64,000 nucleotides of DNA from contig CP136062.1 of the NCBI GenBank assembly GCA_032622095.1, forward strand, positions 6,324,001 to 6,388,000, written 5' to 3'. Origin of the DNA: Siphonodentalium dalli. Its lineage: Eukaryota; Mollusca; Scaphopoda; Gadilida; Siphonodentaliidae. Positions 10,945 to 44,793 of the stretch are shown here, one piece after another; position 1 is the stretch's first letter; each line of letters opens with the position of its first letter. A model generated the notes under the pieces. The model was not told the DNA's origin. It did no database searches and saw only the letters and a program-made list of their open reading frames with translations. A program made the translations under genes and the position numbers.

Positions 10945-10952
10945 TGTATCTC
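10945..10952. repeat. Left 8 bp target-site duplication TGTATCTC
   Basis: TGTATCTC lies immediately left of the terminus GGGAGTGACTAAAACGCAG. The same octamer lies immediately right of the inverted terminus at 35,376-35,383, and again at 45,274-45,281 in the duplicated right flank. Confidence 0.9.
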
Positions 10953-11669
10953 GGGAGTGACTAAAACGCAGAATGGGACGATGGGACGGTACGGTATGGG
11001 ACGGTATTGGGACGGTATGGGACGGTATTTGGGACGGCGCGGGACGGTATTGGGACGGTATTAGAAAACCGGCTGTTTATCAATAATACAGCGTGTAGCG
11101 GCATCAAAATGGTTATATATAGTCGGCATTAACATTGCGTACATGGAGCAACAATTTAATAGTCTCATTCGCCAACACAAAGCTCATATTACCGGCTAAA
11201 AATAGACACGACGGAAATAGGCGATTACGGTCAAACGCAGAAAGAAAATGTAAACACCAAATCACCCCATACATTCATATTTCCCTGTCCCACGGTGATA
11301 TTTTTGCATAAAATGTTAGATTAACATCTTATCGACATCACTGTAGCATTTTATTGACCATAATCAAGATGAAAACAACTTTTGTCGTCGATGGGACGGA
11401 AGCGAAATTGCAGAACGAAAATGTAAACAAACACCAAATCATCCCATGCATTCACATTTCCCCGTCCCGCGGCGATATTTTTACATAAAATGTTAGATTA
11501 ACATCTTCTCGACATCATTGTAGCATTTTAATGACCACAATCAAGATTAAAACATGTTTTTATTCGCTGATGGAACTGAACGGAAGCGGTATTAAAGCGC
11601 AGAACAACCGTAGGAAATTGCAGAACGAAAATGTAAACAAACACCAAATCACCCCATGCATTCATATTT

Positions 11670-14600
11670 CCCCGTCCCGCGGCGATATTTTTGCATAAAA
11701 TGTTAGATTAACATCTTTTCGACATCACTGTAGCATTTTATTGACCATAATCAAGATGAAAACAACCTTTTTCGTCAATGGGACGGAAGCGAAATTGCAG
11801 AACGAAAATGTAAACAAACACCAAATCACCCCATGCATTCACATTTCCCCGTCCCGCGGCGATATTTTTACATAAAATGTTAGATTAATATCTTCTCGAC
11901 ATCATTGTAACATTTTATTGACCATAATCAAGATGAAAACATGTTTTTTTTTCGCTGATGGGACGGAAGCAAAATTGCAGAACGGGATGGGACGGTATTA
12001 GATAGGATGGGACGGTATTAGAAAACGCAGAACAGCTAAGATAGACCCCTAAACTTGCTGTTTAGCAATAATACAGCATGTAGCAGCACCAAAATGGCTC
12101 TATATGGTCATCAGTGCAGCATTTTATTGGTGATCCCATTTTATTGACCATAATCAAGATGAAAACAACTTTTTTCGTCGATGGGACGGAAGCGAAATTG
12201 CAGAACGAAAATGTAAACAAACACCAAATCACCCCATGCATTCACATTTCCCGGTCCCGCGGCGATATTTTTACATAAAATGTTAGATTAATATCTTCTC
12301 GACATCATTGTAACATTTTATTGACCATAATCAAGATGAAAACATGTTTTTTTTCGCTGATGGGACGGAAGCGAAATTGCAGAACGAAAATGTAAACAAA
12401 CACCAAATCACCCCATGCATTCACATTTCCCCGTCCCGCGGCGATATTTTTACATAAAATGTTAGATTAATATCTTCTCGACATCATTGTAACATTTTAT
12501 TGACCATAATCAAGATGAAAACATGTTTTTTTTTCGCTGATGGGACGGAAGCAAAATTGCAGAACGGGATGGGACGGTATTAGATAGGATGGGACGGTAT
12601 TAGAAAACGCAGAACAGCTAAGATAGACCCCTAAACTTGCTGTTTAGCAATAATACAGCATGTAGCAGCACCAAAATGGCTCTATATGGTCATCAGTGCA
12701 GCATTTTATTGGTGATCCCATTTTATTGACCATAATCAAGATGAAAACAACTTTTTTCGTCGATGGGACGGAAGCGAAATTGCAGAACGAAAATGTAAAC
12801 AAACACCAAATCACCCCATGCATTCACATTTCCCGGTCCCGCGGCGATATTTTTACATAAAATGTTAGATTAATATCTTCTCGACATCATTGTAACATTT
12901 TATTGACCATAATCAAGATGAAAACATGTTTTTTTTCGCTGATGGGACGGAAGCGAAATTGCAGAACGAAAATGTAAACAAACACCAAATCACCCCATGC
13001 ATTCACATTTCCCCGTCCCGCGGCGATATTTTTACATAAAATGTTAGATTAATATCTTCTCGACATCATTGTAACATTTTATTGACCATAATCAAGATCA
13101 AAACATGTTTTTTTTTCGCTGATGGGACGGAAGCAAAATTGCAGAACGGGATGGGACGGTATTAGATAGGATGGGACGGTATTAGAAAACGCAGAACAGC
13201 TAAGATAGACCCCTAAACTTGCTGTTTAGCAATAATACAGCATGTAGCAGCACCAAAATGGCTCTATATGGTCATCAGTGCAGCATTTTATTGGTGATCC
13301 CATTTTATTGACCATAATCAAGATGAAAACAACTTTTTTCGTCGATGGGACGGAAGCGAAATTGCAGAACGAAAATGTAAACAAACACCAAATCACCCCA
13401 TGCATTCACATTTCCCCGTCCCGCGGCGATATTTTTACATAAAATGTTAGATTAATATCTTCTCGACATCATTGTAACATTTTATTGACCATAATCAAGA
13501 TGAAAACATGTTTTTTTTCGCTGATGGGACGGAAGCGAAATTGCAGAACGAAAATGTAAACAAACACCAAATCACCCCATGCATTCACATTTCCCCGTCC
13601 CGCGGCGATATTTTTACATAAAATGTTAGATTAATATCTTCTCGACATCATTGTAACATTTTATTGACCATAATCAAGATCAAAACATGTTTTTTTTTCG
13701 CTGATGGGACGGAAGCAAAATTGCAGAACGGGATGGGACGGTATTAGATAGGATGGGACGGTATTAGAAAACGCAGAACAGCTAAGATAGACCCCTAAAC
13801 TTGCTGTTTAGCAATAATACAGCATGTAGCAGCACCAAAATGGCTCTATATGGTCATCAGTGCAGCATTTTATTGGTGATCCCATTTTATTGACCATAAT
13901 CAAGATGAAAACAACTTTTTTCGTCGATGGGACGGAAGCGAAATTGCAGAACGAAAATGTAAACAAACACCAAATCACCCCATGCATTCACATTTCCCGG
14001 TCCCGCGGCGATATTTTTACATAAAATGTTAGATTAATATCTTCTCGACATCATTGTAACATTTTATTGACCATAATCAAGATGAAAACATGTTTTTTTT
14101 CGCTGATGGGACGGAAGCGAAATTGCAGAACGAAAATGTAAACAAACACCAAATCACCCCATGCATTCACATTTCCCCGTCCCGCGGCGATATTTTTACA
14201 TAAAATGTTAGATTAACATCTTCTTGACATCATTGTAACATTTTAATGACCATAATCAAGATGAAAACATGTTTGTTTTCGCTGATGGGACGGAAGGGAA
14301 ATTGCAGAACGGGATGGGACGGTATTAGATAGGATGGGACGGTATTAGAAAACGCAGAACATCTAAGATAGACCCCTAAACTTGCTGTTTAGCAATAATA
14401 CAGCATGTAGCAGCACCAAAATGGCTCTATATGGTCATCAGTGCAGCATTTTATTGGTGATCCCATTTTATTGACCATAATCAAGATGAAAACAACTTTT
14501 TTCGTCAATGGGACGGAAGCGAAATTGCAGAACGAAAATGTAAACAAACACAAAATCACCCCATGCATTCACATTTCACCATCCCGCGGCGATATTTTTA

Positions 14601-17600
14601 CATAAAATGTTAGATTAACATCTTCTCGACATCATTGTAACATTTTAATGACCATAATCAAGATGAAAACATGTTTTTTTTCGCTGATGGGACGGAAGCG
14701 AAATTGCAGAACGGGATGGGACGGTATTAGATAGGATGGGACGGTATTAGAAAACGCAGAACAGCTAAGATAGACCCATAAACTTGCTGTTTAGCAATAA
14801 TACAGCATGTAGCAGCACCAAAATGGCTCTATATGGTCATCAGTGCAGCATTTTATTGGTGATCCCATTTTATTGACCATAATCAAGATGAAAACATGTT
14901 TTTTTTCGCTGATGGGACGGAAGCGAAATTGCAGAACGAAAATGTAAACAAACACCAAATCACCCCATGCATTCACATTTCCCCGTCCCGCGGCGATATT
15001 CTTACATAAAGTGTTAGATTAATATCTTCTCGACATCATTGTAACATTTTATTGACCATAATCAAGATGAAAACATGTTTTTTTTCGCTGATGGGACGGA
15101 AGCAAAATTGCAGAACGGGATGGGACGGTATTAGATAGGATGGGACGGTATTAGAAAACGCAGAACAGCTAAGATAGACCCCTAAACTTGCTGTTTAGCA
15201 ATAATACAGCATGTAGCAGCACCAAAATGGCTCTATATGGTCATCAGTGCAGCATTTTATTGGTGATCCCATTTTATTGACCATAATCAAGATGAAAACA
15301 ACTTTTTTCGTCGATGGGACGGAAGCGAAATTGCAGAACGAAAATGTAAACAAACACCAAATCACCCCATGCATTCACATTTCCCCGTCCCGCGGCGATA
15401 TTTTTACATAAAATGTTAGATTAATATCTTCTCGACATCATTGTAACATTTTATTGACCATAATCAAGATGAAAACATGTTTTTTTTTCGCTGATGGGAC
15501 GGAAGCAAAATTGCAGAACGGGATGGGACGGTATTAGATAGGATGGGACGGTATTAGAAAACGCAGAACAGCTAAGATAGACCCCTAAACTTGCTGTTTA
15601 GCAATAATACAGCATGTAGCAGCACCAAAATGGCTCTATATGGTCATCAGTGCAGCATTTTATTGGTGATCCCATTTTATTGACCATAATCAAGATGAAA
15701 ACAACTTTTTTCGTCGATGGGACGGAAGCGAAATTGCAGAACGAAAATGTAAACAAACACCAAATCACCCCATGCATTCACATTTCCCGGTCCCGCGGCG
15801 ATATTTTTACATAAAATGTTAGATTAATATCTTCTCGACATCATTGTAACATTTTATTGACCATAATCAAGATGAAAACATGTTTTTTTTCGCTGATGGG
15901 ACGGAAGCGAAATTGCAGAACGAAAATGTAAACAAACACCAAATCACCCCATGCATTCACATTTCCCCGTCCCGCGGCGATATTTTTACATAAAATGTTA
16001 GATTAATATCTTCTCGACATCATTGTAACATTTTATTGACCATAATCAAGATGAAAACATGTTTTTTTTTCGCTGATGGGACGGAAGCAAAATTGCAGAA
16101 CGGGATGGGATGGTATTAGATAGGATGGGACGGTATTAGAAAACGCAGAACAGCTAAGATAGACCCCTAAACTTGCTGTTTAGCAATAATACAGCATGTA
16201 GCAGCACCAAAATGGCTCTATATGGTCATCAGTGCAGCATTTTATTGGTGATCCCATTTTATTGACCATAATCAAGATGAAAACAACTTTTTTCGTCGAT
16301 GGGACGGAAGCGAAATTGCAGAACGAAAATGTAAACAAACACCAAATCACCCCATGCATTCACATTTCCCGGTCCCGCGGCGATATTTTTACATAAAATG
16401 TTAGATTAATATCTTCTCGACATCATTGTAACATTTTATTGACCATAATCAAGATGAAAACATGTTTTTTTTCGCTGATGGGACGGAAGCGAAATTGCAG
16501 AACGAAAATGTAAACAAACACCAAATCACCCCATGCATTCACATTTCCCCGTCCCGCGGCGATATTTTTACATAAAATGTTAGATTAACATCTTCTTGAC
16601 ATCATTGTAACATTTTAATGACCATAATCAAGATGAAAACATGTTTGTTTTCGCTGATGGGACGGAAGGGAAATTGCAGAACGGGATGGGACGGTATTAG
16701 ATAGGATGGGACGGTATTAGAAAACGCAGAACATCTAAGATAGACCCCTAAACTTGCTGTTTAGCAATAATACAGCATGTAGCAGCACCAAAATGGCTCT
16801 ATATGGTCATCAGTGCAGCATTTTATTGGTGATCCCATTTTATTGACCATAATCAAGATGAAAACAACTTTTTTCGTCAATGGGACGGAAGCGAAATTGC
16901 AGAACGAAAATGTAAACAAACACAAAATCACCCCATGCATTCACATTTCACCATCCCGCGGCGATATTTTTACATAAAATGTTAGATTAACATCTTCTCG
17001 ACATCATTGTAACATTTTAATGACCATAATCAAGATGAAAACATGTTTTTTTTCGCTGATGGGACGGAAGCGAAATTGCAGAACGGGATGGGACGGTATT
17101 AGATAGGATGGGACGGTATTAGAAAACGCAGAACAGCTAAGATAGACCCATAAACTTGCTGTTTAGCAATAATACAGCATGTAGCAGCACCAAAATGGCT
17201 CTATATGGTCATCAGTGCAGCATTTTATTGGTGATCCCATTTTATTGACCATAATCAAGATGAAAACATGTTTTTTTTCGCTGATGGGACGGAAGCGAAA
17301 TTGCAGAACGAAAATGTAAACAAACACCAAATCACCCCATGCATTCACATTTCCCCGTCCCGCGGCGATATTCTTACATAAAGTGTTAGATTAATATCTT
17401 CTCGACATCATTGTAACATTTTATTGACCATAATCAAGATGAAAACATGTTTTTTTTCGCTGATGGGACGGAAGCAAAATTGCAGAACGGGATGGGACGG
17501 TATTAGATAGGATGGGACGGTATTAGAAAACGCAGAACAGCTAAGATAGACCCCTAAACTTGCTGTTTAGCAATAATACAGCATGTAGCAGCACCAAAAT

Positions 17601-19433
17601 GGCTCTATATGGTCATCAGTGCAGCATTTTATTGGTGATCCCATTTTATTGACCATAATCAAGATGAAAACAACTTTTTTCGTCGATGGGACGGAAGCGA
17701 AATTGCAGAACGAAAATGTAAACAAACACCAAATCACCCAATGCATTCACATTTCCCCGTCCCGCGGCGATATTTTTACATAAAATGTTAGATTAATATC
17801 TTCTGGACATCATTGTAACATTTTATTGACCATAATCAATATGAAAACATGTTTTTTTTCGCTGATGGGACGGAAGCGAAATTGCAGAACGAAAATGTAA
17901 ACAAACACCAAATCACCCCATGCATTCACATTTCCCCGTCCCGCGGCGATATTTTTACATAAAATGTTAGATTAACATCTTCTTGACATCATTGTAACAT
18001 TTTAATGACCATAATCAAGATGAAAACATGTTTGTTTTCGCTGATGGGACGGAAGCGAAATTGCAGAACGGGATGGGACGGTATTAGATAGGATGGGACG
18101 GTATTAGAAAACGCAGAACAGCTAAGATAGACCCCTAAACTTGCTGTTTAGCAATAATACAGCATGTAGCAGCACCAAAATGGCTCTATATGGTCATCAG
18201 TGCTGCATTTTATTGGTGATCCCATGTTATTGACCATAATCAAGATGAAAACAACTCTTTTCGTCGATGGGACGGAAGCGAAATTGCAGAACGAAAATGT
18301 AAACAAACACCAAATCACCCCATGCATTCACATTTCCCCGTCCCGCGGCGATATTTTTACATAAAATGTTAGATTAATATCTTCTCGACATCATTGTAAC
18401 ATTTTATTGACCATAATCAAGATGAAAACATGTTTTTTTTCGCTGATGGGACGGAAGCGAAATTGCAGAACGGGATGGGACGGTATTAGATAGGATGGGA
18501 CGATATTAGAAAACGCAGAACAGCTAAGATAGACCCCTAAACTTGCTGTTTAGCAATAATACAGCATGTAGCAGCACCAAAATGGCTCTATATGGTCATC
18601 AGTGCAGCATTTTATTGGTGATCCCATTTTATTGACCATAATCAAGATGAAAACATGTTTTTTTTCGCTGATGGGACGGAAGCGAAATTGCAGAACGAAA
18701 ATGTAAACAAACACCAAATCACCCCATGCATTCACATTTCCCCGTCCCGCGGCGATATTTTTGCATAAACTGTTAGATTAACATCTTTTGACAACACTGA
18801 AGCATTTTAATGACCATAATCAAGGTTAAAACAATTTTTTTTTGGTCGATGGGACGGCACCTTTGGATATTGCAGAACGGGATGGGACGTTATTATATAG
18901 GATGGGACGGTATTAGAAACCGCAGGACAGCTAAGATAGACCCCTAAACTTGCTGTTTAGCAATAATACAGCATGTATAGCAGCACCAAAATGGCTCTAT
19001 ATGGTCATCTGTGCAGCATTTTACTTGTGATCCCATTTTATTGACCATAATCAAGATGAAAACAACTTTTTTCGTCGATGGGACGGAAGCGAAATTGCAG
19101 AACGAAAATGTAAACAAACACCAAATCACCCCATGCATTCACATTTCCCCGTCCCGCGGCGATATTTTTACATAAAATGTTAGATTAACATCTTCTCGAC
19201 ATCATTGTAACATTTTAATGACCATAATCAAGATTAAAACATGTTTTTTTTCGCTGATGGGACGAAACCTTTGGAAATTGCAGAACGGGATGGGACGGTA
19301 TTAGATAGGATGGGACGGTATTAGAAAACGCAGAACAGCTAAGATAGACCCCTAAACTTGCTGTTTATCAATAATACAGCATGTAGCAGCACCAATATGG
19401 CTCTGTATGGTCATCAGTGCAGCATTTTATTGG
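11670..19433. repeat. Expanded satellite array in the left arm (B+A and B+A+A higher-order units)
   Basis: Two modules alternate. Module A is about 179 bp and runs from 'gggacggaagcgaaattgca' through 'ccccgtcccgcggcgat' to 'gcattttattgaccataatc'-type ends. Module B is about 225 bp, with 'gggatgggacggtattaga', 'tagacccctaaacttgctg' and 'ggtgatcccattttattg'. The last motif recurs near 12,133, 12,713, 13,296, 13,879, 14,457, 14,862, 15,263, 15,668, 16,248, 16,830, 17,233, 17,637, 18,220, 18,617 and 19,030, spaced either about 580 bp (B+A+A) or about 404 bp (B+A). A larger 2.37 kb block repeats (13,880-15,700 with 16,250-18,050). The 61-residue minus-strand ORFs at 14,791, 17,163 and 18,550 are the same repeat, not genes. 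Confidence 0.92.
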
Positions 19434-20390
19434 TGATCCCATTTTATTGACCATAATTGGGATGGGACGGTATTTGAAAACGCAGAACAGCTAACATCTT
19501 TTCGACGTCATGACCATTAAAGATTAAAACAACTTTTTTCGCTGACGGGATAGCAGCGGCAAAACGCAGAACAACCTTTGGAAATTGCAGAACTAGATGG
19601 GACGGTATTAGATGGGATGGGACGGTATTACATGGGTTGAGACGGTGTTAAAGAACTCGGTACCGTATATATAGCATGCTATGCAAACAAACTGTATGAC
19701 ACTTGATGCTCGAGTACATCGTGTCACCGTAGTTAGCATCACACCTGTCGAAACAATATTCGAATACAATGTAAAATAATTGAGGTGTTGTCCCAGGATT
19801 TTACAGCTTTTTTAATATACCGACACAGAAGAATGTCAGTAGATGATGAGATGAATGTATGGATATCCCGCCATATGTCAGTTTTTATTAGAGAATGCAT
19901 TAAAACAATAGCACAAGCTTCGGACAACACAGCAGCTACACAATATATATATATATTTCAACCGTTGTTTGAACGGGTGATTGTTGCCGACAAAGGTTAA
20001 TGTAATTAAAGACATATGAACAATAAAATGTTGAATAAAATCCTACAATGTTATCGAGAATATATTTATGTAACATTAATTTTTGTACAGTAATATCGTC
20101 ATGTGACGGCGAAATATTAATGCATTTGTTGTATACATGTTCGTTCTGCAATGTTGTCACGGCTGTTCTGCGTTTTACCGTGTCTGTCCCATCGACGAAA
20201 CAATTTGTTTCAAACTTGATTATGGATGAATAAAATGTTGCACGGATGTCGAGAATATATTATCTAACATTGTGTTTTGCCACTGCTGTCCCATCAGCGA
20301 ATAAAAACATGTTTTAATCTTGATTATGGTCATTAAAATGTTACAATGATGTCGAGAATATATTAATCTAACAATTTATGCCGAAATATC
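19434..20390. repeat. Inner end of the left arm, including an orientation flip
   Basis: About 19,434-19,655 is the reverse complement of about 32,573-32,793 in the right arm (shared words 'ggttgagacggtgttaaaga' and 'cctttggaaattgcagaac'). About 19,660-20,000 is unique AT-rich sequence. From about 20,020 to 20,375 satellite A-like modules reappear in the opposite orientation ('tcttgattatggtcattaaa'), so the left arm contains its own small inversion. Confidence 0.7.
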
Positions 20391-20540
20391 CAGGGGGGGG
20401 GCGGAAAAAAACTGCGGGACACAACGTACCGGGGGGGGTACATAGGCGTAAACAAATTACACATAAATTTTGTCCTTATTCATTTACGGGGGGGGGGGGG
20501 GGGGGGGGGGGGGTTGTCGGAAAAAATTTGCATGTAATTT
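20391..20540. repeat. G-run / CGGAAAAAA repeat at the arm-interior border
   Basis: 'ccaggggggggcggaaaaaa' is followed by a second G run, a third run of about 24 G and 'tgtcggaaaaaa'. The reverse complement of the first motif ('ttttttccgccccccc') lies at the matching border of the right arm, near 30,945-30,960. It marks the symmetric edge of the interior and may be the end of a nested short element. Confidence 0.6.
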
Positions 20541-21499
20541 TTTCCAAATATGTATTTTCAGACTCACAACTTAAATTTTCTCTAATTTGATAGAATATGG
20601 ATTAACCTTAATATCAAAATCATATATACATGAGTAGTACAATCCACATAAAATAATTTTGGATAAACACTGTCTTGGTTTACATGTGATATTGACCCCA
20701 TTAACCTTCTTAATAATGCCGACTATGTCAGTGTCTACCAGTCGAATCCAGAATTCTACCCTGCGATCGCTCATCTGGCAAATTTTTACTGCAGAACTAT
20801 CCCATGTATTAAACAATTTCTCCTCCAATGGTATCAGAAAACATAACTAGAGGTCAGATTCCATGGAATCAGATATACTTCCATGGTATCCCATCCAATC
20901 CCATGTGAGTGTTATGCGTATATGTGTGTTCCTCTTCATGCGAATGCATATTGGAGCTTAATGATCCGATGGTGGACTTGCATTGACATTTCTAAATAAG
21001 AAATATACTCCAAAGGTTTATGTCATGATGATTAATGACTGTCTAATGCATCATGGCCCTGACCAACTGAGTCACCATTCACCCAGCCAATCAGTTCATT
21101 TGTATTCGTAGGGATACATTTTATGGCTAATTATAGCCGCTCCCCTGGACGCCCAAATCCTGTTCAACGGTCACGAAATTTGGTGTGTCTGATTGTAGAG
21201 TAATAGGCATGTATATATATCAAAAGGGTGCAAATCATATTAATGTAAAATGACTCCGTTATATCGCATTTAGTGGATAGTACTTTCAGTTTCGGATTCA
21301 GAATTGTTCGTTTTAATGGAAGAGGAAAGACCGCTTATTAATTAATTCAGAGCGTCATCGCCACACTATACTCATTAACGTCGTTGTAATATAGTTAACA
21401 GTAATCAAGAGATAACTATATCACAATCGATAATGTCATCTGAGTGCCTACCCGTCCGTTTTAAAACTAATGGTGTCCGTATATATACTACCAAACACA
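20541..21499. other. Element interior, no gene seen
   Basis: AT-rich non-coding DNA. 'cagattccatggaatcagat' near 20,853 followed by 'acttccatggtatcccatcc' gives a small inverted motif that recalls the 'accatggaagtata' ends at 28,980 and 30,715. No coding frame stands out. Confidence 0.5.
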
Positions 21500-21559
21500 T
21501 GCATTGTTCAAAATATAAAACACTGGATTGAGTAGATTCGCGATTTTCCATTGTTTCGC

Positions 21560-21735
21560 GCTCCCCTCGGGCAGGTTAATTTCTTGGTAGAGCAGTAAAT
21601 CTTTGGGGGCGTATCTATGGTATATCGTTGTACCTGCTCGTGCATTAGCTTGCTCCTTGATAAACCCGTAAAATCTTGGAGGCGTACCTACAGTATACCG
21701 ACGTACATGCTCCTGCATTAAACTAGCTCCTTTAT
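21560..21735. repeat. Two-copy tandem repeat, ~85 bp
   Basis: 'aaatctttgggggcgtatct' and 'aaaatcttggaggcgtacct' head two adjacent units, each ending in a 'tgcattagcttgctcctt' or 'tgcattaaactagctccttt' motif. The minus-strand ORF over it is 76 residues and has no recognised domain. Confidence 0.65.
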
Positions 21736-21804
21736 TAGCACGTTTGGATTTGGGGCTAAAATTAGGTTAGTGATAGACTACTCAAGTATAAATATTTATA
21801 TTAT

Positions 21805-22215
21805 ACTAGCAGGGTGACCCGACTTCGTCCGGACTGTTTTCGCTATTGACCATTTTGAAGGTCAAGGTCAGGTCGGGGTCTCAATTTGACCCGTGTAAAA
21901 CATTCCCACGACAAAATTACCCTTGGTATCAATTTCATCAAAATCCCGTCGAAAGGCGCGATTTGACCTTGAATTGACCATTTTAAAACAAACGTACCCA
22001 TAGGTATCAAATTTCGTGGAAATCCATCCATTTTACACGATTTAACATTGAATTTACCATTTTTAAAGTCATGGCCAGGTCGGAGTCAAAAACACTCCCC
22101 GGACAAAAGTAACCCTTGATATAAAATTTTGTCGAAATCCGTCCGGCAGTTTTCCCGGCCATACCTAACAGACAAACAAACAAACAGACAGAAGTCCCAA
22201 AATATATAGTAGATA
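21805..22215. repeat. Dispersed 'GGTGACCCGACTTCGTCC' repeat, nested in the interior
   Basis: It starts with 'agggtgacccgacttcgtcc', carries 'aaggtcaaggtcaggtcggg' and 'tttcgtcgaaatccgtccgg', and ends with 'cccaaaatatatagta'. It is flanked by 'tatactagc' on the left and 'tagtagataac' on the right. It belongs to the same family as 6,200 and 25,492. Confidence 0.75.
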
Positions 22216-24080: not shown

Positions 24081-25105
24081 ACATTTTTTTATTGTTTTGT
24101 TAATTGGTCACACCATCATAGTTTGTTTTACACGAATAATAATATACTGGGTACTATATCTGCAGGAAGTAATCCGTGTTGTTGGAGTCATATCCTGCAA
24201 TAATCATTACCCGACCCCGCGTCTTCTGAATCTATGGCTTCCTCGACCAAATTGTAGACAGTTCCGCGCTTGGTGCAGTACGAAAAGCTCCTATATATAA
24301 AAGGGATTAACTTGGGGACAAATTGCCAAAAAATTTGAAAATAAGAGTAACTCAAACACTAATTATGCGAATATGCAGCTTAGATGTAAATTGAAAACGG
24401 GCTAATAATTAAGATATTATTGTTACACGGACTAGGTATCTATCAGAGAAATGTTTACTGGTTTGTTGAGGTATAATTATGATAGTGCATGGGGTAGGTG
24501 TCATGCATTTAGTGAAACCCGAAAGGTATGATACTTACCTCGCTGGCAGTTAGGCCTACCTCAATAACGAAGTCCACGACACCACATGTCAAATAATCCT
24601 CAAATTTAGAAACGTGTAGACGCTTATACATGCAGTGTATTGTGAATAAACTGATCTGACCACAAATTAGCCCGAGGAAACTTTAAAGCAGCCCCTATGA
24701 TTTTAGCTATCTTGGGAATGCCGTTTCGACGAGATGTGATTGATAGGACCATAGTCCCAAAATTATGACATTACAAGACAGAATAACGCCCTATCGGTGC
24801 CAATGCAGCGAAATTTTTGAACTGCTGCCATTGTGTTCTATATATTACACGTTTTGGGAAATTTGATAACATAATTGACAATGGCTAGTATTATTTTGTT
24901 GCCATTAATCGATTCTGATAACTAAAGCGTATTTTGAAGAAATGTTGTTATTATTGTATCTTGATGATATGGGGACCCCTTGATCGGATTAATCACCTTT
25001 AAATGCGTTAATCAAGTGTGCGTTTTGACACACACGAGGTATCTGATCTGCGTGTTTGAATACTATTGTAGCATATGTCCGTAGCTGCCAAAATGCTCTG
25101 TAATA
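24081..25105. other. Element interior, no gene seen
   Basis: AT-rich sequence. A minus-strand 'gaggtaagtatcat' near 24,530-24,545 looks like a splice donor but has no supporting exon. I see no recognisable protein. Confidence 0.45.
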
Positions 25106-25375
25106 TGTCATATCCTATTTGATAGCATTTTTGTTCGTTTCGCGTTGTGTTTTCTGTCGCCTCCGCCATTATTTCGTGTTATTAATTTGTCCAACATTTC
25201 ATATACGGTCAATGCACTCATTGCAAAATGGTGATCAACGACCATTATTGGCACAAGTAGCACAATTATATGTAATTTAACCACATGTTTACATCTGGGG
25301 TACACAGTTTAATTTATTACCCCAATTGAACAGTACCGTAGTTCTGCGGTTTGCTTGGCCAATACAGCAATCTAT
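25106..25375 (-). pseudogene. Inverted partial copy of the relic gene 5' region
   Basis: On the minus strand, ATGGCGGAGGCGACAGAAAA recurs (start near 25,173) and reads MAEATENTTRNEQK before diverging without the splice donor. Upstream of it, 'cattttgcaatgagtgcatt' and 'gtaccccagatgtaaacatg' mirror plus-strand sequence at about 23,820-23,840 and 23,318-23,337. So 23,240-23,340 plus 23,780-23,880 form an inverted pair with 25,150-25,370, a palindrome nested inside the larger one. The Thr/Ser and Gln/Glu differences from the first copy show independent divergence. Confidence 0.55.
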
Positions 25376-25489
25376 GCATTGCGTTCGAAACGGAGCTAGG
25401 TTCCATCCGCGGGGAGATGGGGAACCCGGAGGAAGGGGAAGGTGGAGAGACAATTTTTTGGCGTATAAATAGATAATATATATTATACT

Positions 25490-25730
25490 AGAAGGTGACC
25501 CGTCTTCGTCCGGGCTTTGACCTTGAATTGACCATTTTGAAGGTCAAGGTCAGGTGGGGTCAAACACCAACACCCCAAAAATGGTGGAAATCGGCCCAGC
25601 GGATACCAGGAAATCGGCCCAGCGGATACCGAGATATCCTATGCATCAAATTTCGTCCGTAAAAATCCGCCAGTTTAACCCGATTTGATTTCCACTCAAG
25701 TATATAAACGCGCCTCATATACACACGCTC
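25490..25730. repeat. Short dispersed 'GGTGACCCG' repeat copy
   Basis: It begins 'aaggtgacccgtcttcgtcc' and has one 'aaggtcaaggtcaggtgggg' module and a doubled 'aaatcggcccagcggatacc'. It is probably truncated compared with the copy at 26,283. Confidence 0.65.
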
Positions 25731-26099
25731 ATTAATTATCAAGTTTCAACGTAAAGATAAATTACCATCGGTGCCCGAGATATCGCCAAGACGTCTGAAA
25801 CAGTCAAATGCATCGGCCGGTTAAGCGTTAACGTGATCTAACGTTATGACCTCTAACGACGTCATAGAAGTTACGCATTGTTTTTATCCTGATGGAAGAT
25901 AGTACCACTTCTTCTTGATAATTGAGGCAGATAACTAAAACGGATACATAGGCATTATATATCGTTGGAAAGAGGACACACGAAAGATTCTCACAGTGTC
26001 ATTATTATGACTGGCATTTTATTATTCGCGCTGTTTCGAATCGATTTGTAAGCACCGAACTCAAATGAAAGTCTCGTAACACAGCGTAAAAACAGATTT
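25731..26099. other. Element interior, no gene seen
   Basis: No gene or clear repeat recognised. Short tandem words such as 'gacctctaacgacgtcatag' occur singly. Confidence 0.45.
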
Positions 26100-27125
26100 G
26101 ACCTCGGCACGTGAAAAGGTGACCTCGGATCTGAAAATCAATAGGCCTATGTCACCCCCCGGCCGAAATTACCCCCAAATACCAAGTTTCATCGAAATCG
26201 GGTCGGCCGTTTTCGAGTTCATCGATTACACACACACACACACACCCTAACACACACACAAACAGATCTTCCAAAATATATAAGGTGACCCGACTTCGTC
26301 CGGACTTTGACCTTGAATTGTCCATTTTGAAGGTCAAGGTCAGGTGGGGTCACGATTTGACCCGTCCAAAACACTGCCCGGACAAAAGTACCCGACAAAC
26401 GTGCCCGTCGAAATCCATCCGGTTTTACCCGATTTGACCTCGAATTGATAATTTTGAAGGTCGAGGTTAGTTCAGGGTCACGACTCGACCCGTCCAAAAC
26501 ACTCAGTGGACAATATTAACCCCACGTATCAAATTTCGTCGAAATCCCATCAAAATTCGCGATTTGATCTTGAATTGACCCGATTCCAAGGTCAAGGTCA
26601 CGTCGCACGGCAAACGAATAGGCTTATGAGAATCCCCATACGAAAGTATCCATAGTCACTAAGTTTCATCGAAATCCCGTGATATTCGGGCGTTTGACAT
26701 TGAAATGACCCGATTTCAAGGTCAAGGTCAAGTCGCACGTGCAGATTAATAGCCTATGCCACTCCCCGGCCGAAAGTACCCTCACATACCAAGTTTCATC
26801 GAAATCCCGTGATATTCGGGCATTTGACCTTGAAATCACCCTATTTCAAGGTCAAGGTCACGTCGCACGTGCAAATCAATAGGCCCGTGCCCGGCCCCGG
26901 CCGAACGTACCCCCACATACGAAGTTTCATCGAAATCGAAATGACCCGATTTCAAGGTCAAGGTCACGTTGCACGGACAAATTAATAGGCACATGCCACC
27001 CCCCGGCCGAAAATACCCCCACATGCCAAGTTTCATCGAAATCGGCTCGGCTCGGCTAATCGCGAACACACAGACAGACACACACACACACACAGACAGA
27101 TCTTCCAAAATATATAATAGACTAG
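26100..27125. repeat. Composite of dispersed repeat copies with (CA)n tails
   Basis: One copy ends at 26,265-26,282 with a (CA)n tract and 'cttccaaaatatataa'. The next starts at once with 'aaggtgacccgacttcgtcc'. It then holds several ~125 bp modules ('aaggtcaaggtcacgtcgca', 'aagtttcatcgaaatcccgt', 'gatattcgggc') and ends at 27,118 with another CA tract and the same 'cttccaaaatatataata'. The head-to-tail join suggests insertion of one copy next to another or slippage-based growth. Confidence 0.75.
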
Positions 27126-28030
27126 CCGATGAGCCCGACGTTGTCCGGGCTATTCAAAAACCAAATTTCAAGTCGATAGCTCTACCCGTTTCCGAGATCT
27201 GGTCTGCGCATGCGCGAAGCTGGCGTCACACGGGCTCGGCGACCCGATAAAATTCGTATCCGGGGCAAGATACATTCACATAGCAAATTTCAAGTCGATA
27301 GCTCCACCCGTTTCCGAGATCTGGTCTGTGCATGCGCGAAGCTGGCGTCGCACGGGCTCGGCGACCCGATAAAATTCGTATCCGGAGCAAGATACATTCA
27401 CATACCAAATTTCAAGTCGATAGCTCTACCCGTTTCCGAGATCTGGTCTGCGCATGCGCGAAGCTGGCGTCACACGGGCTCGGCGACCCGATAAAATTCG
27501 TATCCGGGGCAAGATACATTCACATAGCAAATTTCAAGTCGATAGCTCCACCCGTTTCCGAGATCTGGTCTGTGCATGCGCGAAGCTGGCGTCGCACGGG
27601 CTCGGCGACCCGATAAAATTCGTATCCGGGGCAAGATACATTCACATAGCAAATTTCAAGTCGATAGCTCCACCCGTTTTATGAGATCTCGTCTGCGCAT
27701 GCGTGAAGCGGGCGCCACACGGGCTCGCCAATACGACAAGGTCGACCGCCTGGTCAAAAACGCATGCGCGAAGCTGGCGTCGCACGGGCTCGGCGACCCG
27801 ATACAATTCGTATCAGGGGCAAGATACATTCACATAGCAAATTTCAAGTCGATAGCTCCACCCGTTTCCGAGATCTGGTCTGCGCATGCGCGAAGCTGGC
27901 GTCGCACGGGCTCGGCGACCCGATAAAATTCGTATCAGGGGCAAGATACATTCACATACCAAATTTCAAGTCGATAGCTCCACCTGTTTCCGAGATCTGG
28001 TCTGCGCATGCGCGAATCTGGCGTCCAAAG
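27126..28030. repeat. Minisatellite, 122 bp unit, ~7 copies
   Basis: Units contain 'tttcaagtcgatagctccac', 'gcgcatgcgcgaagctggcg' and 'aaattcgtatccggggcaag'. Successive ORF starts at 27,210, 27,332, 27,454 and 27,576 are 122 bp apart. Because 122 is not a multiple of three, the same open frame recurs in all three phases, giving several long overlapping ORFs that are not genes. One unit near 27,680-27,770 is rearranged. The unit is CpG-rich relative to its surroundings. Confidence 0.9.
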
Positions 28031-30740
28031 GTTTAGGTTGAAATAATGGAGCCTTTTTCAAAAAGTGAAAACAAATTGAACGACTTTTCTGGAACAGATC
28101 GATTTGGATCCGTTTTGGACTCTGGATTCCACAAAAGTCATCTCCGTTTCGCGTGTAGCATAATATGAATCTTCGTCGGAGATATGATGTAAAGCACATG
28201 GGCCCAACTTGCAAAATTTGAGGGCCCGTAACTTTTGCATTTCTTCTCTGATTTCAAAAATATTTTCTGGTGTAGGTTCTTTTCGTTCAGGGAATCCATC
28301 TACTTAAATACTTAAATAGATGAATGTCAATCAACATTTTTTTTTATTTTGCCCCCACCCCAGCGTCAATAAAACTGACAACGGTCAACACGACTATGAT
28401 ACCCAAATGCAATTATCTGGAATGATACGAGAGGACAGCATAGTAAATCAAATAGAGGTTTGCCTATATATAGGCGGTAACTCCGCAGGGAAAGCGCGGA
28501 CACAAGTGTTGATGCCCGTGGGCAGTGGTGCATATCGAGGTGTCCATATGGTCCAAATTTGGATGCCCTGCTCCTCATAATTTCCGAGATAGTAAAATGA
28601 CATTTTTTCAGATAAAGGAAGATAAGTCTGCGAGGAAAGCGCGGACAATATTCGTTATGCGACTTAGGCATACAACTCAATTTCCTCAACATATTTACCA
28701 ACTTTTAGTTTTCTACTGCTCATACTTTCCGAAATAAAGTGATTATAAAAGTGTGCAGTATTTTAATAATAATAATAATAATAATAATAGTGAAAAATAT
28801 TTTTTTTTTAAATTTCATTCCGTGGCGAAGCGTTGGGCCGAACTCATGATATCTTCATTTTCTGTATCCCTTTGCCTACATTCCCTCGATTTCACGGTCC
28901 TCCTCACATTAGTTTCTGAGTATTTTCAATTAAACAGAAAACGGCCCCAATAGAAAAACAATATACTTCCTTGGTTACACCATGGAAGTATAATAATAGG
29001 ATCAATCATGAGTGGAAAGAATAGCAGTTTATGGACGGAAAATATGAAGTATGGTAATTATATGTTGTCCTAATATGTGTAGGTTGATCTCAAGTGTTTG
29101 GACGTGACCCCACCCCTGCCTCGAAATTGGGTGACGGGATTGGGAAAACATCAACCCCTGGCACAAAATGCTAAGCTTGAGGCCCCGTAACTTCGTTAGT
29201 TTCCATCGGATTTAAAAGTTGTTTCCAGTTTTGTGATTTGCGGCTGACATGGATTGCATAGTATAAATTTCATCTGATTTGGAGACGGATAACACTTTGA
29301 TTATTGGAAAGCATATGGGCCCAAATTCAAACTTGGACGGCCAAAATCTCCGCCATTTCCCAACATATTTACGATCTGTTTTCAGCTTCGAGATCGGCTG
29401 ATGTTGCAGATGTTATATTCTAAGTTTCATCTGATTCGGAAAAGAATTAAAAATTGGTACCACTGACCACCCCTCCCCAGACACACAATACCGAACCGAC
29501 ACTGGCAAAATTTGGCCCACCGCGTGCCGTCTTCAGTCCGTACGCATTTTCGTATCAGATGACATCCTATGTTCGATATCTTCGGAGGAGATGTGTTATC
29601 AAGCACATGGGCCCAAAATTGCAAAGTTTGAGGGCCCGCGATTCTTTTAGTTTTCGATGGATTTTCGAAATTCTTCCAGTTTCTAGATCGGCTGATGTTG
29701 CAGATGTTATATTCCAAGTTTCATCTGATTCCGAGAATAATTAAAATTTGGTACCACGGACCACCCCTCCCCAGACCCACAATAATGAACCGACACTGGC
29801 AAAATTTGGCCAGCCGCGTGCCCTCTTCCGTCCGCACACGTTGGCGTATCAGTTGACATCCAAACTTCGACATCTTCGGAGGAGATGTGGTCACAAGCAC
29901 ATGGGCCCAAATTGCAAACTTTGAGGGCCCGTAACTCTTGCATTTCTTCTCGGATTTCAAAAATCCTTTCCAGTATGGGTTTGTTTTCGTTCAGGGAATC
30001 AACATACTTAAATAGAGGAATGTCAATCAAAACATTTTTTTTTTCGAAAATTTTGCCCCCACCCCAGCGTCAAAATATATGGCCGACCCTGTTCAATTTT
30101 CTTTTTCAGACTAAACTGACAATGGTCAACACGACTATGAAATCCAAATGCAGTTATCTCTAATGATACGAGAGTACAGCATAGTAAATGAAATAGAGGT
30201 TTGCCTATTTATGGGCGGTAACTCCTCAGGAAAAGCGCGGACACAAGTTTTGATGCCCGTGGGCAGTAGGGCATATCGAGGTGTGCATACGGTCCAATTT
30301 TCGATGCTCTGCTCCTTATAATTTCCGAGATAATAAAATGAAATGTTTTCAGATAAAGGGAGATAACTCCTCGGGAAAAATGCGGACACTATGCTTTATG
30401 CGACCTGGGCATACAACTATTTGACCCCAACATACGTACCAAGTTTTAGTGTGCTACTCCTTATACTTTTCGAGTAATAAGGGTTGCAAAAGTGTCAAGT
30501 ATAATAATAATAATAATGAAAAATAATCAAAAAAGGGCCATAACTCCGTCAAGAAACATTGGACCGACATGCGGATACCTTTATTTTTAGTAGACCTCAG
30601 ATGCCTACATATTCGCTACAGGTTTTGTGTTTCTACTGCAATTACTTTCTGAATATTTCCAAATAAACGGAAAACGGCGCCAGTACAAAAACAATATACT
30701 TCCTTGGTTACACCATGGAAGTATAATAATAATAATAATC
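28031..30740. repeat. Two diverged ~0.8 kb repeat copies plus ~298 bp tandem units
   Basis: About 28,140-28,998 and about 29,870-30,733 align in the same order: 'cacatgggcccaa', 'agggcccgtaact', 'ttttcgttcagggaatc', 'ggcggtaactcc', an (AAT)n tract, and 'ggttacaccatggaagtata'. Between them, 'cacatgggccc' plus 'cgtgcc.tcttc.gtccg' modules recur about 298 bp apart (29,510 and 29,808). Both copies end in (TAA)n after the palindromic 'ccatgg'. Composition suggests a non-autonomous dispersed family that was tandemly duplicated. No coding capacity recognised. Confidence 0.75.
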
Positions 30741-30970
30741 TAAACTAAGTTACCAAGCACCTTCTCGTGAATTGTATGCTCCGGTGTTTTTTTCGGTTTC
30801 CGGTAAAACCGAGTTGTTGTCCGGCTGGGGTAGATTCGATTTTTCTGGGGGGGGGGGGGGGGCAATGGTCAGTGAAAAAAAAACTGCAGGGGGGTACCCA
30901 AACCGAAGAGAACAGTTTTGTTCCACCCTGCAATGTGTCTGCAGTTTTTTCCGCCCCCCCTTGAAATATC
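30741..30970. repeat. G-run repeat at the right arm-interior border
   Basis: A run of about 17 G is followed by 'aaaaaaaaactgcagggggg', and 'ctgcagttttttccgccccc' lies about 60 bp further on, so this is an inverted G-run/C-run pair. The C-run side is the reverse complement of the left border motif at 20,391. Confidence 0.6.
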
Positions 30971-33347
30971 GTAAGGTAAAGTCGAAATATATATGAATTT
31001 GTTGTTTACATGTTCATTCGGCTTTCTACCACGGCTAGTACCGTCCCATGTATACCGTCTTATCCCATCTAATAACGTCCCAAACCGTTCTGCAATATCC
31101 TAAGGTTGTTCTGTGTTTTGCCGCTTCTGTCCCATCGATGAAAAAAGTTGATTTAATCTGAGTATGGTCATTAAAATTCTACAATGATGTCGAAAATTTT
31201 TTTTCATTTATTGGAGATTTGGGAATGACCCGGGATGATTTGGAAGTGGCGAAACCCCTCCCCTACAACCCAATTTTAGGTGAGGGTGTCGAGTTTGATG
31301 CAAAAATATCACCGTGGGACGGGGAAATACGAATGCGGTGAACGATGTTTGTGTTTACCATCTAATACCGTCCCATCCCGTTTTTCTGCGTTTTACGAAA
31401 ACAGTTTTGATCTTGATTATGGTCAATAAAATGCTAAAATGATGCCGAGAAGATGTTGATCTAACATTTTATGCAAAAATATCACCGTGGGACGGGGAAA
31501 TATGAATGTGATGAATGATGTTTTGGAGTAAGCAATATTTGATTACGAACAGAACATGTAATACAAGCCTAAAATCCTTTTATCAAATGAGGTTGTTGTT
31601 TACCATTTCGTTCTGCAATTTCCTAAGCTGTTTCAACTTCCGTCCCATTGGCGAAACAAATTGTTTTAATCTTGATTATGGTCAATAAAATGCTACACAG
31701 ATGTCGAGAAGATATTATTCTAATATTATGTACAGAAATATCGTCATGGGACGGCGGCAAAATATGAATGCATTTATGGTCTACATGTTCGTTCTGCCAT
31801 TACCGCGGCCGTTCTGCGTTTTACCCATCGACGAAACAAGTTATTTTAAACTAGATTAAAATGCTACACTGATGTCGTGAATATATCAATCTAACATATG
31901 TCAAGAATAGTCGTCATAGGACGGCGAAATATGAATGAATTTGTTGTTTTGTAATTATAATAAAGAGCGTTTCTTAGTTTACATTATATAACCCATGAGA
32001 GATGTGTTTGCCATTAACCACATGTTGCTGGTTCGAACAGCGTTCAAATACATGAATAGTAGAATACTCTACACCATTCGTAAGTGCATAACACAAACAG
32101 CGAGTAATTCTCACTGAGACGATATCATCACCCTAAAGAGTCTGTGTCATCTGCCACCAGTTATGCAAACACAAGCTTAGTGCCAACGTAAACTCAAGCT
32201 CAGTGCCGACGTGAACAGAGTGTGAACAACTGAACGCCGTGTCAAACATTTTTGATATTGGTTTCTCCTTGTACGTTCATTAATAGTGAATTCTTATAGT
32301 ACTCGCATGTGATATTTGGATTTACCACACAATTTGTAAGTAAAAACTGATTTTGTTATGTTCGTTCTGCGTTTTACATAGCTCTTCTGTCCCATATCGA
32401 TGACGTAAGCTGTCCCGTCGGCGCGACGAGTTGTTTTGTGCCACACAAATGTCGAGAAAATGTAACATTTTAACATGTCACAATGGGACGGGGAAATGTA
32501 AATGCATTGAATGATTTTGTTGTTTCCAAAGGTTGTTCTGCGTTTTTGTCCCGTCCCATCTTTCTGTTCTGAGTTCTTTAACACCGTCTCAACCCATCTA
32601 ATACCGTCCCATCCCATCTAATACCGTCCCATCTAGTTCTGCAATTTCCAAAGGTTGTTCTGCGTTTTGCAGCTGCTATCCCATCAGCGAAAATAGTTGT
32701 TTTAATCTTTAATGGTCATGACGTCGAAAAGATGTTAGCTGTTCTGCGTTTTCTAATACCGTCCCATCCCAATTATGGTCAATAAAAAGGGATCACCGAT
32801 CTAATACCGTCCCATCCCGTTCTGCAATTTCGCTTCCGTCCCATCAGCGAAAAAAAACATGTTTTCATCTTGATTATGGTCATTAAAATGTTACAATGAA
32901 CGAAATATGAATGCATGGGGTGATTTGGTGTTTGTTTACATTTTCGTTCTGCAATTTCATACGGTTGTTCTGCGCTTTAATACCGCTTCCGTTCCGTCCC
33001 ATCAGCGAATAAAAACATGTTTTAATCTTGATTGTGGTCATTAAAATGCTACAATGATGTCGAGAAGATGTTAATCTAACATTTTATGTAAAAATATCGC
33101 CGCGGGACGGGGAAATGTGAATGCATGGGATGATTTGGTGTTTGTTTACATTTTCGTTCTGCAATTTCGCTTCCGTCCCATCGACGAAAAAAGTTGTTTT
33201 CATCTTGATTATGGTCAATAAAATGCTACAGTGATGTCGAAAAGATGTTAATCTAACATTTTATGCAAAAATATCACCGTGGGACAGGGAAATATGAATG
33301 TATGGGGTGATTTGGTGTTTACATTTTCGTTCTGCGTTTGACCGTAA
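30971..33347. repeat. Right arm of the foldback element (outer satellite, inverted)
   Basis: Satellite modules A and B appear in the opposite orientation to the left arm ('tctaataccgtcccatccc', 'ttcgcttccgtcccatcg', 'gaagatgttaatctaacatt'). Only one or two copies of each are present, so the large left-arm expansion is absent here. From about 32,899 to 33,347 the match to the left terminus is continuous. About 31,960-32,330 is non-repetitive. Confidence 0.85.
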
Positions 33348-35164
33348 ACGTAATCCGACGTTTGTTTGTCACAATTGTGAAACCATATTTTCGAGGCTTA
33401 TTACCTTGTGGAAACAACGCTCTTTATTGTTGTTGTTTTCCCAAACAGTAAATAATTCATGTTCAAATGCGTCTGTGTACGTATTCTTGCCCTGTGTTTC
33501 ATACACGACCGATTATACTGAAGAGTCTGACTAACTCAAATAAACACGACGCTCTGAATTATATCATGGTCCATTAATGCTGATAGATAACTGGTTATCT
33601 GAGAGTGTTGTCCTCTTGCTTTGACCGATGTTTATAGAGTTTTCACTGCCTGAGAGTGTAAGGAATAGATACATCCTTTTTGGATTAGATTAAGGGGTAA
33701 TTGATATAATGAAAATAATTTGCTTTTGAGTAAGCATTGAATTTGATTAAGGTGGTAGCTATTATAATATAATATTTTGCTTATGGTTATACATTGGATT
33801 TGATTAAGGGGTAATTGATATAATGACAATAATTTGCTTTTGAGCATGCATTGGACTTGATTAAGGTGGTAGTTAGTATAATAGAATATTGTGCTTAGGG
33901 ATTAAGGGGTAATTGATATAATGGAAATAATTTGCTTTTGAGTATGCATTTAATTTGATTAAGGTGGTAGCTATTATAATATAATATTTTGCTTATGGTT
34001 ATACACTGGATTTGATTAAGGGGTAATTGATATAATGGAAATAATTTGCTTTTGAGTAGGCATTGGATTTGATTAAGGTGGTATTTATTATAATATAATA
34101 TTTTACTTATGGTTATATATTGGATTTGATTAAGGGGTAATTGATATAATGAAAATAATTTGCTTTCGAGTATGCATTGGATTTGATTAAGCTGGTAGTT
34201 ATGCTTTATTATTATTAAGGGGGTGGACTTTGATAAATGTATTTGTTATTATTGGGGTGGGTAGATGAAAAGTTTTAGTTTTTTTGTTATGCCGTGATCA
34301 TATTTTGACGCCCAGAGGTGAATCAGTTATGTCCCGTTATATAAATAACGTAATGAGTTGCTCCCACGATTTTCATGGGGTCGGCTGAGTTTGGATTTCC
34401 GGGAGACTGCCGAGCTGGGATTTCTTAGGGATCCTTACTCAGTTAGCCCTTTATACCACTGGATAACACTTAATAATTTAATATGTATTGAATGATTTCA
34501 TTTATTAATATTTAGACTCCACCTCACTATATTGTCACGGCATATCAAAATAGAAATAATCATCAAATATATATAGACAATAAATCGCATCAATTTTTTA
34601 GTTTTGTTTGTGTTATCTCCCTTTTTCATCAGCCTGGGTATATCCTTGTTAGGTTCCATCAGTGGTAGTCGTCTCTATCTTGCCATGTGAGCAAGACCCT
34701 TTGCTTTAGCTGCTCGTTTCTCTGTTATTAATGGATTGAACCTACATTTCTAAATCCGCTAATTATATTTATAAAATAATCTTAACTTATTCCGAGTGGG
34801 GTCATAGTACAAGTTTCGACTTGGACTTGTGACACTACTGGGGAATAGGTCACAATTTGACTGCATTTTTTTTGTTTTATCTAAAGTTAAGGTATAAGTT
34901 GATCTATATTAAATGACACGTAGTTCCCTTTTTTATTTTTCATTCTTGCACAACAAGTATAATTAGTCTTGACTACATTTTGTTCACCACACATAACAAG
35001 TTTTGAGCTTATAACTGACTCCAAGTTATTCACAATTATGGAGTTCCATCGCTTAGCGCGTCAATGGTAACAATGAACCCCATTCCATTCTTGATTAACG
35101 GTCCTCCCATTAAAAGAGAAATAAAACTGTAGTTTCTATATAACCCTAGAGTACAATTCGCTAC
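33348..35164. other. 1.8 kb substitution inside the right arm, with a 114 bp minisatellite
   Basis: Both the left terminus and the duplicated copy at 44,794-46,094 have 61 bp at this place (45,002-45,062). Here those 61 bp are replaced by 1,817 bp. About 33,687-34,205 is a five-copy AT-rich minisatellite ('gattaaggggtaattgatat') with units of about 98-115 bp. The rest carries no recognised gene and no clear terminal repeats. Confidence 0.75.
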
Positions 35165-35375
35165 ACTATTAAATTGTTGCTCCATGTACGCAATGTTAAT
35201 GCCGACTATATATAACCATTTTGATGCCGCTACACGCTGTATTATTGATAAACAGTCGGTTTTCTAATACCGTCCCAATACCGTCCCGCGCCGTCGCAAA
35301 TACCGTCCCATACCGTCCCAATACCGTCCCATACCGTCCCGTCCCATCGTCCCATTCTGCGTTTTAGTCACTCCC

Positions 35376-35383
35376 TGTATCTC
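35376..35383. repeat. Right 8 bp target-site duplication TGTATCTC
   Basis: It directly follows the inverted terminus CTGCGTTTTAGTCACTCCC and matches 10,945-10,952 exactly. LINE-1 coding sequence resumes at the next base. Confidence 0.9.
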
Positions 35384-35860: not shown

Positions 35861-35869
35861 ACTAGTATG

Positions 35870-44788: not shown

Positions 44789-44793
44789 CTTCC

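Follow-up and report, generated by a model that had tools for sequence, protein, structure and literature searches.

A dispersed family of foldback-type DNA transposons with 8-bp target-site duplications and a 24-kb copy lying within a dead LINE

The stretch of DNA analysed here (64,000 nucleotides, referred to as the window) contains, at positions 10953–35375, what is very probably a DNA transposon of the foldback type, moving by cut-and-paste without a transposase of its own and belonging to a dispersed family, with the history that we propose below. The insertion itself is confirmed by its inverted termini, an 8-bp target-site duplication (TSD) and a target that is in frame across the empty site. 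The element proper measures 24,423 bp and is bounded by 19-bp inverted termini: GGGAGTGACTAAAACGCAG starts at 10953 on the forward strand (10953–10971), and the last base of its reverse complement is 35375. The TSD, TGTATCTC, abuts these termini at 10945–10952 and 35376–35383 (forward strand). Both the inverted termini and the 8-bp duplication had been claimed in an earlier sequence-only reading and are borne out; its boundaries, 10945–35383, had the site right, but the span takes in both duplications. The outer 211 bp of the left end (10953–11163) form an inverted match of 98.6% identity with the right end at 35165–35375 (reverse strand), the first of two right ends in the window.

The target is LINE coding sequence on the reverse strand (8110–10944), containing RVT_1 (9484–10884) and internal stops; its endonuclease codons continue in frame after the insertion at 35384–35431 (reverse strand), with similarity stopping near 35431, a 5' truncation. 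Joining the flanks with a single TGTATCTC gives an open frame, ...TPTFFHTNERDTAEIDYIF.... When the 30 best relatives were aligned to the joined target, 20 crossed the empty-site stretch without a gap, the continuous endonuclease sequence that had been predicted across this junction; seven stopped short of the junction and three aligned at 18–21% identity to another region of the protein. The target LINE ceases to resemble its relatives some 20 codons upstream of the junction, and its frame holds internal stops. Because this copy is dead, the in-frame join is a sign of precise insertion only, not of a restored working gene; the earlier statement that excision restores a LINE reading frame stands for the join and fails for the gene. 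Likewise, the target is a LINE, but the clade label "LINE-1" given to it was an overstatement.

The ends define a dispersed foldback-type family, with termini of the type GGGAGTGACTAAAACGC. The exact 19-bp terminus occurs 105 times in the 2.23-Gb genome (51 forward, 54 reverse), as against zero for the reversed control, and is absent from the prokaryotic and viral contigs; other copies with the same ends, for which the sequence-only reading had proposed a search, therefore exist. Facing ends mark 24 two-ended loci of 204 bp to 32 kb, which include the window and a near-identical second copy, leaving 23 independent loci. A perfect TSD (8/8) flanks 10 of these 23 and is exactly 8 bp long in all 10; two further loci match at 7/8 positions and one at 6/8, and the remaining 10 have no recognisable TSD. 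Other long copies with perfect TSDs measure 17.0, 18.3 and 24.5 kb. The continuous inverted match in other copies reaches about 1.2–1.3 kb and is merely 28–50 bp in several. Two candidates were set aside. Copies of 18,272 and 18,264 bp were rejected as an autonomous form, having only arm-type repeats in common at 80% identity (among 40 of 45 matches), and four loci flanked by aggtctct(g/t)tcg, first taken as longer family termini, are instead read as nested in an outer inverted-repeat element.

The two arms are very unequal, 8.7 kb on the left and about 1.0 kb on the right. The left arm (10953–19658, forward strand) has a GGGACGG-rich outer part followed by tandem units of 179, 402 and about 582 bp. 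Tandem arrays of 10/21, 20, 179 and 402 bp were detected in it, and the right arm has short ones of 10/21 and 20 bp, in agreement with the proposal of satellite-built arms. The motif GCAGAA occurs in the left arm 62 times forward and never in reverse, where 2.1 are expected per strand, and in the right arm never forward and 15 times in reverse. The inner part of the right arm (32571–33343, reverse strand) corresponds to the left arm in two stretches: 32571–32800 equals 19658–19429 at 97%, and 32902–33350 equals 11670–11222 at 98.4%. Directly inside it lie diverged arm-like repeats (31041–32570, reverse strand), and inside the left arm an arm-related module (19661–20390), of which 20028–20390 is in right-arm orientation. 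With long inverted ends, arrays in the arms and a dispersed family all present, the foldback-like architecture with subrepeats envisaged from the sequence is upheld.

Within the right arm, and absent from the sequence-only reading, is a 1.8-kb solo LTR (33344–35165), at whose position about 58 bp of arm (the equivalent of 11164–11221) are missing. Also missed was a near-identical copy of the whole locus, with shared flanks, at C2:4.13 Mb, which is 98.9–99.8% identical to the window in four long colinear blocks. Compared with the window, it lacks about 3.6 kb of the left array, and it carries the 1.8-kb solo-LTR segment twice, bracketing about 8 kb with, by inspection, gypsy-like ORFs. A full LTR element there and a solo LTR in the window point to a gypsy-like element that was reduced to a solo LTR.

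The cargo (20391–31040, about 10.6 kb) contains tandem arrays at 26519–28025, pieces of 22653–23882 repeated in inverted form at 25017–25374, and a C2H2-like exon remnant near 23930–24030 (E 0.019, below the cut-off). Stop-masked six-frame Pfam scans, run without a positive control of the same form, found no transposase domain in the cargo. The same scans found none in stretches of four other copies: C4:203.50 Mb, C3:239.96 Mb (7.5 kb) and C2:33.97 Mb (14 kb in two stretches), each in all frames, and C4:177.58 Mb (8 kb, three of six frames). Only short matches under the curated cut-offs were returned, namely zf-C2H2_6 in the window cargo, crAss_THB, Spt5-NGN and Cys_rich_VLP at C4:203.50 Mb, and crAss_THB at C3:239.96 Mb. 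The unmodified ORFs of other copies likewise yielded no transposase, and a 233-aa ORF of the C8 copy had no relative among 95 candidates. The earlier remark that no transposase is visible thus holds for the window cargo and the scanned parts of four other copies. Because no transposase-bearing relative with the same ends was found in the copies scanned, mobility in trans is something that we only infer.

We propose the following history. A transposase supplied from elsewhere would recognise the 19-bp ends, possibly helped by the many extra copies of an end-like motif in the arms, and would insert the element by an 8-bp staggered cut, of which the TSDs are the observed trace. The arms would lengthen and shorten by tandem duplication, a mechanism suggested by the array difference between the two locus copies and one that would leave the two arms of a single copy very unequal. 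Insertion into the already dead LINE would have come first; a gypsy-like LTR element would then have entered the right arm, later to be reduced to a solo LTR in the window copy; and a second LINE would have inserted across the right end, duplicating this end together with the TSD and 0.8 kb of adjoining host DNA, as the coinciding boundaries indicate. Much of the cargo probably represents later insertions rather than freight travelling with the ends.

One further reading we consider somewhat better than even: a small foldback element inserted and was then filled in place by other repeats, so that no 24-kb unit ever moved. It is a refinement of the foldback-transposon explanation and does not exclude it. 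Among the 40 longest of 556 matches, the interior has only limited stretches in common with other fetched copies, chiefly 19661–20335 (98.8% over 675 bp, C3:141.3 Mb) and 25478–25980 (97.0% over 503 bp, C4:238.06 Mb), and of the fetched loci only the C2:4.13 Mb copy, which shares the flanks, has the same interior. Interiors largely unrelated among copies suggest later filling, as do the 204-bp to 32-kb range of the two-ended copies and the LTR and second LINE as later additions. The close sharing of the two stretches just named argues the other way, although the second may be a dispersed repeat; the 17.0-, 18.3- and 24.5-kb copies with perfect TSDs fit either view. The earlier reading of one very large insertion is unsupported in so far as it implies that all 24 kb moved as a unit, given members of such different lengths and cargo sharing limited to short stretches.

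As to the source of transposase, a MULE (Mutator superfamily) partner, as for most described foldback elements, is a tentative candidate, somewhat short of even. The authors who described Tm1 and Tetris place both in Mutator (PMC3169594, PMC4079207); Tm1 has mostly 9-bp TSDs (8–10) and Tetris 8–10 bp, against exactly 8 bp in 10 of 10 perfect cases here. MULE genes are common in the genome, with at least 150 matches (150 of 813 candidates scored). None of the listed matches was seen by eye inside the 24 two-ended loci, with 100 of the 105 termini listed. For the hAT, P, Merlin and KDZ superfamilies, the Pfam scans of the window cargo and of the stretches of four other copies likewise showed no transposase domain above the cut-offs.

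The right end is present twice (ending at 35375 and 45273), and its two copies, each accompanied by 0.8 kb of host DNA, bracket another retrotransposon; the sequence-only reading had overlooked the second of them with its TGTATCTC and flank (44794–46094). The first copy of right end, TSD and flank (35165–36196, 1032 bp) is 99.5% identical to 45063–46094. Between the copies, on the reverse strand, lies the second LINE (36197–44793), with an ORF1-like region (43275–44108), endonuclease (39522–40226) and RT (37412–39544). It is followed by the second right end (44794–45273, reverse strand; 98.3% inverted identity to 10953–11432 over 480 bp) and by the second TGTATCTC with its 0.8-kb host flank (45274–46094). 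Reconstructed across the solo LTR and the roughly 58 missing bases, a 1,301-bp repeat directly adjoins the segment with the LINE on either side. This is most simply read as a 1.3-kb target-site duplication of the second LINE, whose ends are putative. If confirmed, its length would far exceed that of the LINE target duplications known to us; a literature search found no published report of long target-site duplications.

Of the 105 ends, 77 were seen together with their flank, and among these there are seven groups in which one end with its host flank occurs at least twice: the window, C4:148.04/148.05 Mb, C3:141.32/141.34/141.35, C5:135.065/135.067, C3:136.849/136.852, C3:53.15/53.24 and, inverted, C4:122.44/123.47. 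That the family ends promote local duplication and act as a motor of segmental duplication, through transposase-driven re-replication or alternative transposition, is an improbable extension; both processes are reportedly described for maize Ac/Ds, and local end duplication would fit them. Equally doubtful, or slightly more so, is the reading of the doubled right end as an assembly join of two haplotypes in place of real DNA: the flanked locus copy is found on the same contig at a distance of 2.2 Mb, a picture that misplaced haplotypes can give, but the doubled right end recurs in both locus copies at near-equal spacing (9,898 and 9,894 bp) and the sides of the second LINE fit the repeat boundaries. 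An original right end at 45273, making the element a 34-kb unit, is very unlikely: the match to the left end extends over 480 bp in the second right end and over 211 bp in the first, and TGTATCTC follows both, yet the match of the first resumes beyond the solo LTR, which therefore makes it part of a complete arm, and what separates the two ends is host flank plus a LINE with sides that coincide with those of the duplication.

Our preferred reading, a foldback-type transposon overlaid by later insertions, carries a warning: perfect ends and a perfect TSD around a 24-kb "giant transposon" do not imply that all of it moved together. Two copies that are otherwise nearly identical differ by about 3.6 kb in one arm array, which connects the ends of transposons with the origin of satellite-like DNA. 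The foldback elements described from animals also gain a family whose duplications are exactly 8 bp.

Among known systems, the sea urchin TU foldback elements have long inverted repeats, short outer tandem repeats and 8-bp duplications. Galileo, a foldback-like member of the P superfamily in Drosophila, has similarly long arms that are repetitive inside and vary in length; the tandem repeats of its arms hold additional binding sites for the transposase, and copies whose TSDs do not match are interpreted as chimeric (PMC3688188, PMC3573991). Its TSDs are 7 bp and its TIRs about 0.3–1.2 kb, in contrast to TSDs of 8 bp and an 8.7-kb arm here, and no THAP transposase like that of Galileo was seen in the stretches scanned. 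Tetris, a Drosophila virilis foldback element, is likewise non-autonomous, with tandem repeats in its TIRs and TSDs of 8–10 bp, and is a source of satellite arrays; by description, it differs in host and in having three structurally complete copies with TIRs up to 1.7 kb, as against 105 exact termini and exactly 8 bp here (PMC4079207). Tm1, a Mutator/Foldback element of root-knot nematodes, resembles our family in its composite, variable-length TIRs and in having MITE-like and larger members; by description, it differs in its mostly 9-bp TSDs and in a known member with a putative transposase, none having been found here (PMC3169594). The insertion adds a further example to a kind of mobile DNA that is already known.

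The element proper occupies 10953–35375 of the window (C2:6324001–6388000), and on re-reading the sequence its inverted termini and the flanking 8-bp target-site duplication (TSD) TGTATCTC (10945–10952 and 35376–35383) lie exactly where the sequence-only reading had placed them. Fusing the flanks with a single TGTATCTC yields an open frame across the endonuclease–reverse transcriptase (RT) part of the target LINE. When the first 90 residues of this joined frame were compared with the 30 best LINE relatives, 20 aligned without gaps across the junction stretch, seven ended short of it, and three aligned to another region only, at 18–21% identity. The element is a genuine insertion. Likeness to the relatives ends ~20 codons upstream of the junction, several of them extending at least 150 residues further, and internal stops are present; these features indicate that the target copy is itself dead. 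Thus, the proposal that excision restores a LINE reading frame holds for the in-frame join, which is evidence for precise insertion, and not for a functional switch. Among 120 of 146 relatives listed, animal names are mainly those of bivalves (Pinctada, Mytilus, Pecten), with sea urchin and caecilian far down; several strong matches bear bacterial-bin names, which we read as host contamination, and the majority are nameless. This range of relatives points to a probable molluscan host.

A search of the whole assembly (2.23 Gb, nine contigs) with the 19-bp terminus, as the same reading had suggested, returned 105 exact copies (51 forward and 54 reverse; none for the reversed control), and these form a family. 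Of the 105, 100 places were listed; from these we fetched the facing-end pairs that could be recognised, together with 20 of the 43 unpaired ends. Twenty-four two-ended loci were measured, including the window and its near-duplicate at C2:4.13 Mb (contig and Mb position), giving 23 independent loci. The TSD is perfect (8/8) at ten: the window, C2:14.96, C3:200.17, C3:235.55, C3:239.96, C4:148.05, C4:177.58, C4:203.50, C4:238.06, and C7:75.91 Mb. All ten are exactly 8 bp long; two further loci match at 7/8, one at 6/8, and ten have none. The shortest two-ended locus measures 204 bp; the longest, at 32,377 bp, has no TSD. Four of the ten TSD-less loci sit within an outer inverted repeat, with outer sequence traced at two of the four. 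A study of Galileo includes an interpretation of mismatched TSDs as recombination chimeras (PMC3573991). At C9:96.56 and C9:103.40 Mb (fetched stretches L035, L037, and L069–L072), the family core lies mid-way in a larger element with inverted repeats, the outer ends of which start near TATGGGCAGCCATTCGG; the latter has a possible 6-bp duplication, GATATC, and at the former the fetched sequence covers one of the two outer ends.

The near-duplicate (G000:C2:4132446–4178500, stretches L040–L044) lies 2.2 Mb off on the same contig and matches the window, flanks included, at 98.9–99.8% identity in four long colinear blocks. The left arrays differ by ~3.6 kb, and the copy carries ~3.2 kb extra between window positions 28989 and 30716; it is either a segmental duplication or a misplaced haplotype. 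A solo LTR (33344–35165) interrupts the right arm in the window. The copy has this segment twice, bracketing ~8 kb with ORFs that are gypsy-like by inspection, and so holds a full gypsy-like element at this position.

The segment 44794–46094 repeats the right end, the TSD, and 0.8 kb of flank. The right-end copies are separated by a second, minus-strand LINE, which contains an ORF1-like frame as well as endonuclease and RT; it adjoins the start of the second repeat copy on its 5' side and the end of the first on its 3' side. The simplest reading would be a single LINE insertion with a 1,301-bp target duplication; the 1.3-kb direct repeat of transposon end, TSD, and host flank that appears to bracket the LINE (35165–46094) is thus a candidate extreme target-site duplication. 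Further along are ~76 copies of a 37-bp unit in tandem (48188–50994) and about three head-to-tail copies of a 1,816-bp unit at 99.5–99.7% identity (57321–62774).

Elsewhere, end plus flank is duplicated in seven groups (77 of 105 ends viewed with flank), and such repeated duplications could prove more interesting in future. Those at C3:141.3 Mb, part of a 7-kb stretch doubled at 99%, and at C3:136.85 Mb, where the duplicated stretch is at least 2.1 kb long and 99.95% identical, look like ordinary tandem duplication. At C4:122.44 and C4:123.47 Mb (L066, L067), separated by 1.03 Mb, the same end and flank occur in opposite orientation, with 99.0% identity across 801 bp. C3:136.93 Mb (L062), ~85 kb from the C3:136.85 Mb element (L025), carries that element's left end and left flank inverted, with 97.4% identity across 505 bp. 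At C3:141.33 Mb (L045 7555–9842, L046 9024–9998), a family copy lies together with ORFs, among them the remnant of an A32-like packaging ATPase (Pox_A32, E 2.3e-05, passing the cut-off); this probable virus- or Polinton-like insert is part of a ~12-kb tandem duplication.

A six-frame Pfam search found no transposase in the ~10.6 kb of cargo (20.4–31.0 kb), as the sequence-only reading had stated; the only trace was a C2H2-like exon remnant below the cut-off (E 0.019). Among the 40 listed of 556 matches between the cargo and other fetched loci, the C2:4.13 Mb duplicate left out, the longest at high identity are an inner arm module also present at C3:141.3 Mb (675 bp at 98.8%) and 25478–25980, which matches C4:238.06 Mb (503 bp at 97.0%); the remainder are weaker or short repeats. 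Pfam scans of stretches of four other copies gave no transposase domain: three were scanned in every frame (C2:33.97 Mb, C4:203.50 Mb, and 7.5 kb of C3:239.96 Mb) and C4:177.58 Mb in three of six. Short sub-cut-off matches came up for C4:203.50 and C3:239.96 Mb. The genome has many MULE genes, and none was seen by eye between paired ends among the listed matches (150 of 813 candidates scored). Within 22653–25374, parts of a single sequence, one of them a possible gene start (ATGGCGGAGGCGACAGAAAACAC), recur inverted and in changed order at 25017–25374. The 32-kb copy at C8:39.93 Mb holds a 233-aa ORF (L018 2069–2767) twice in inverted orientation, for which a protein search found no relative.

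By structure, the family is a foldback-type, non-autonomous DNA transposon. Literature titles and abstract openings, with subscription journals thinly covered, yielded no foldback family from a mollusc; the family is apparently new to us, and the kind of element is already known. The observed TSDs suggest cut-and-paste with an 8-bp stagger, driven in trans by a presumed transposase; the observed array difference may reflect arms lengthening through tandem duplication, and interiors would be replaced or filled with time. The left arm (10953–19658) contains tandem units of 179, 402, and ~582 bp; leaving out the LTR, the right arm measures ~1.0 kb. At their inner edges the two arms remain alike (32571–32800 versus 19658–19429, 97%). 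The motif GCAGAA overlaps the 19-bp terminus at its inner edge. The left arm has 62 forward copies of it and no reverse one (~2.1 expected per strand), and the right arm (31001–33350) has 15, all of them reverse (~0.6 expected per strand). By analogy, these arm motifs may be bound by transposase: their convergent layout resembles the additional transposase sites described for the arms of Galileo (PMC3688188).
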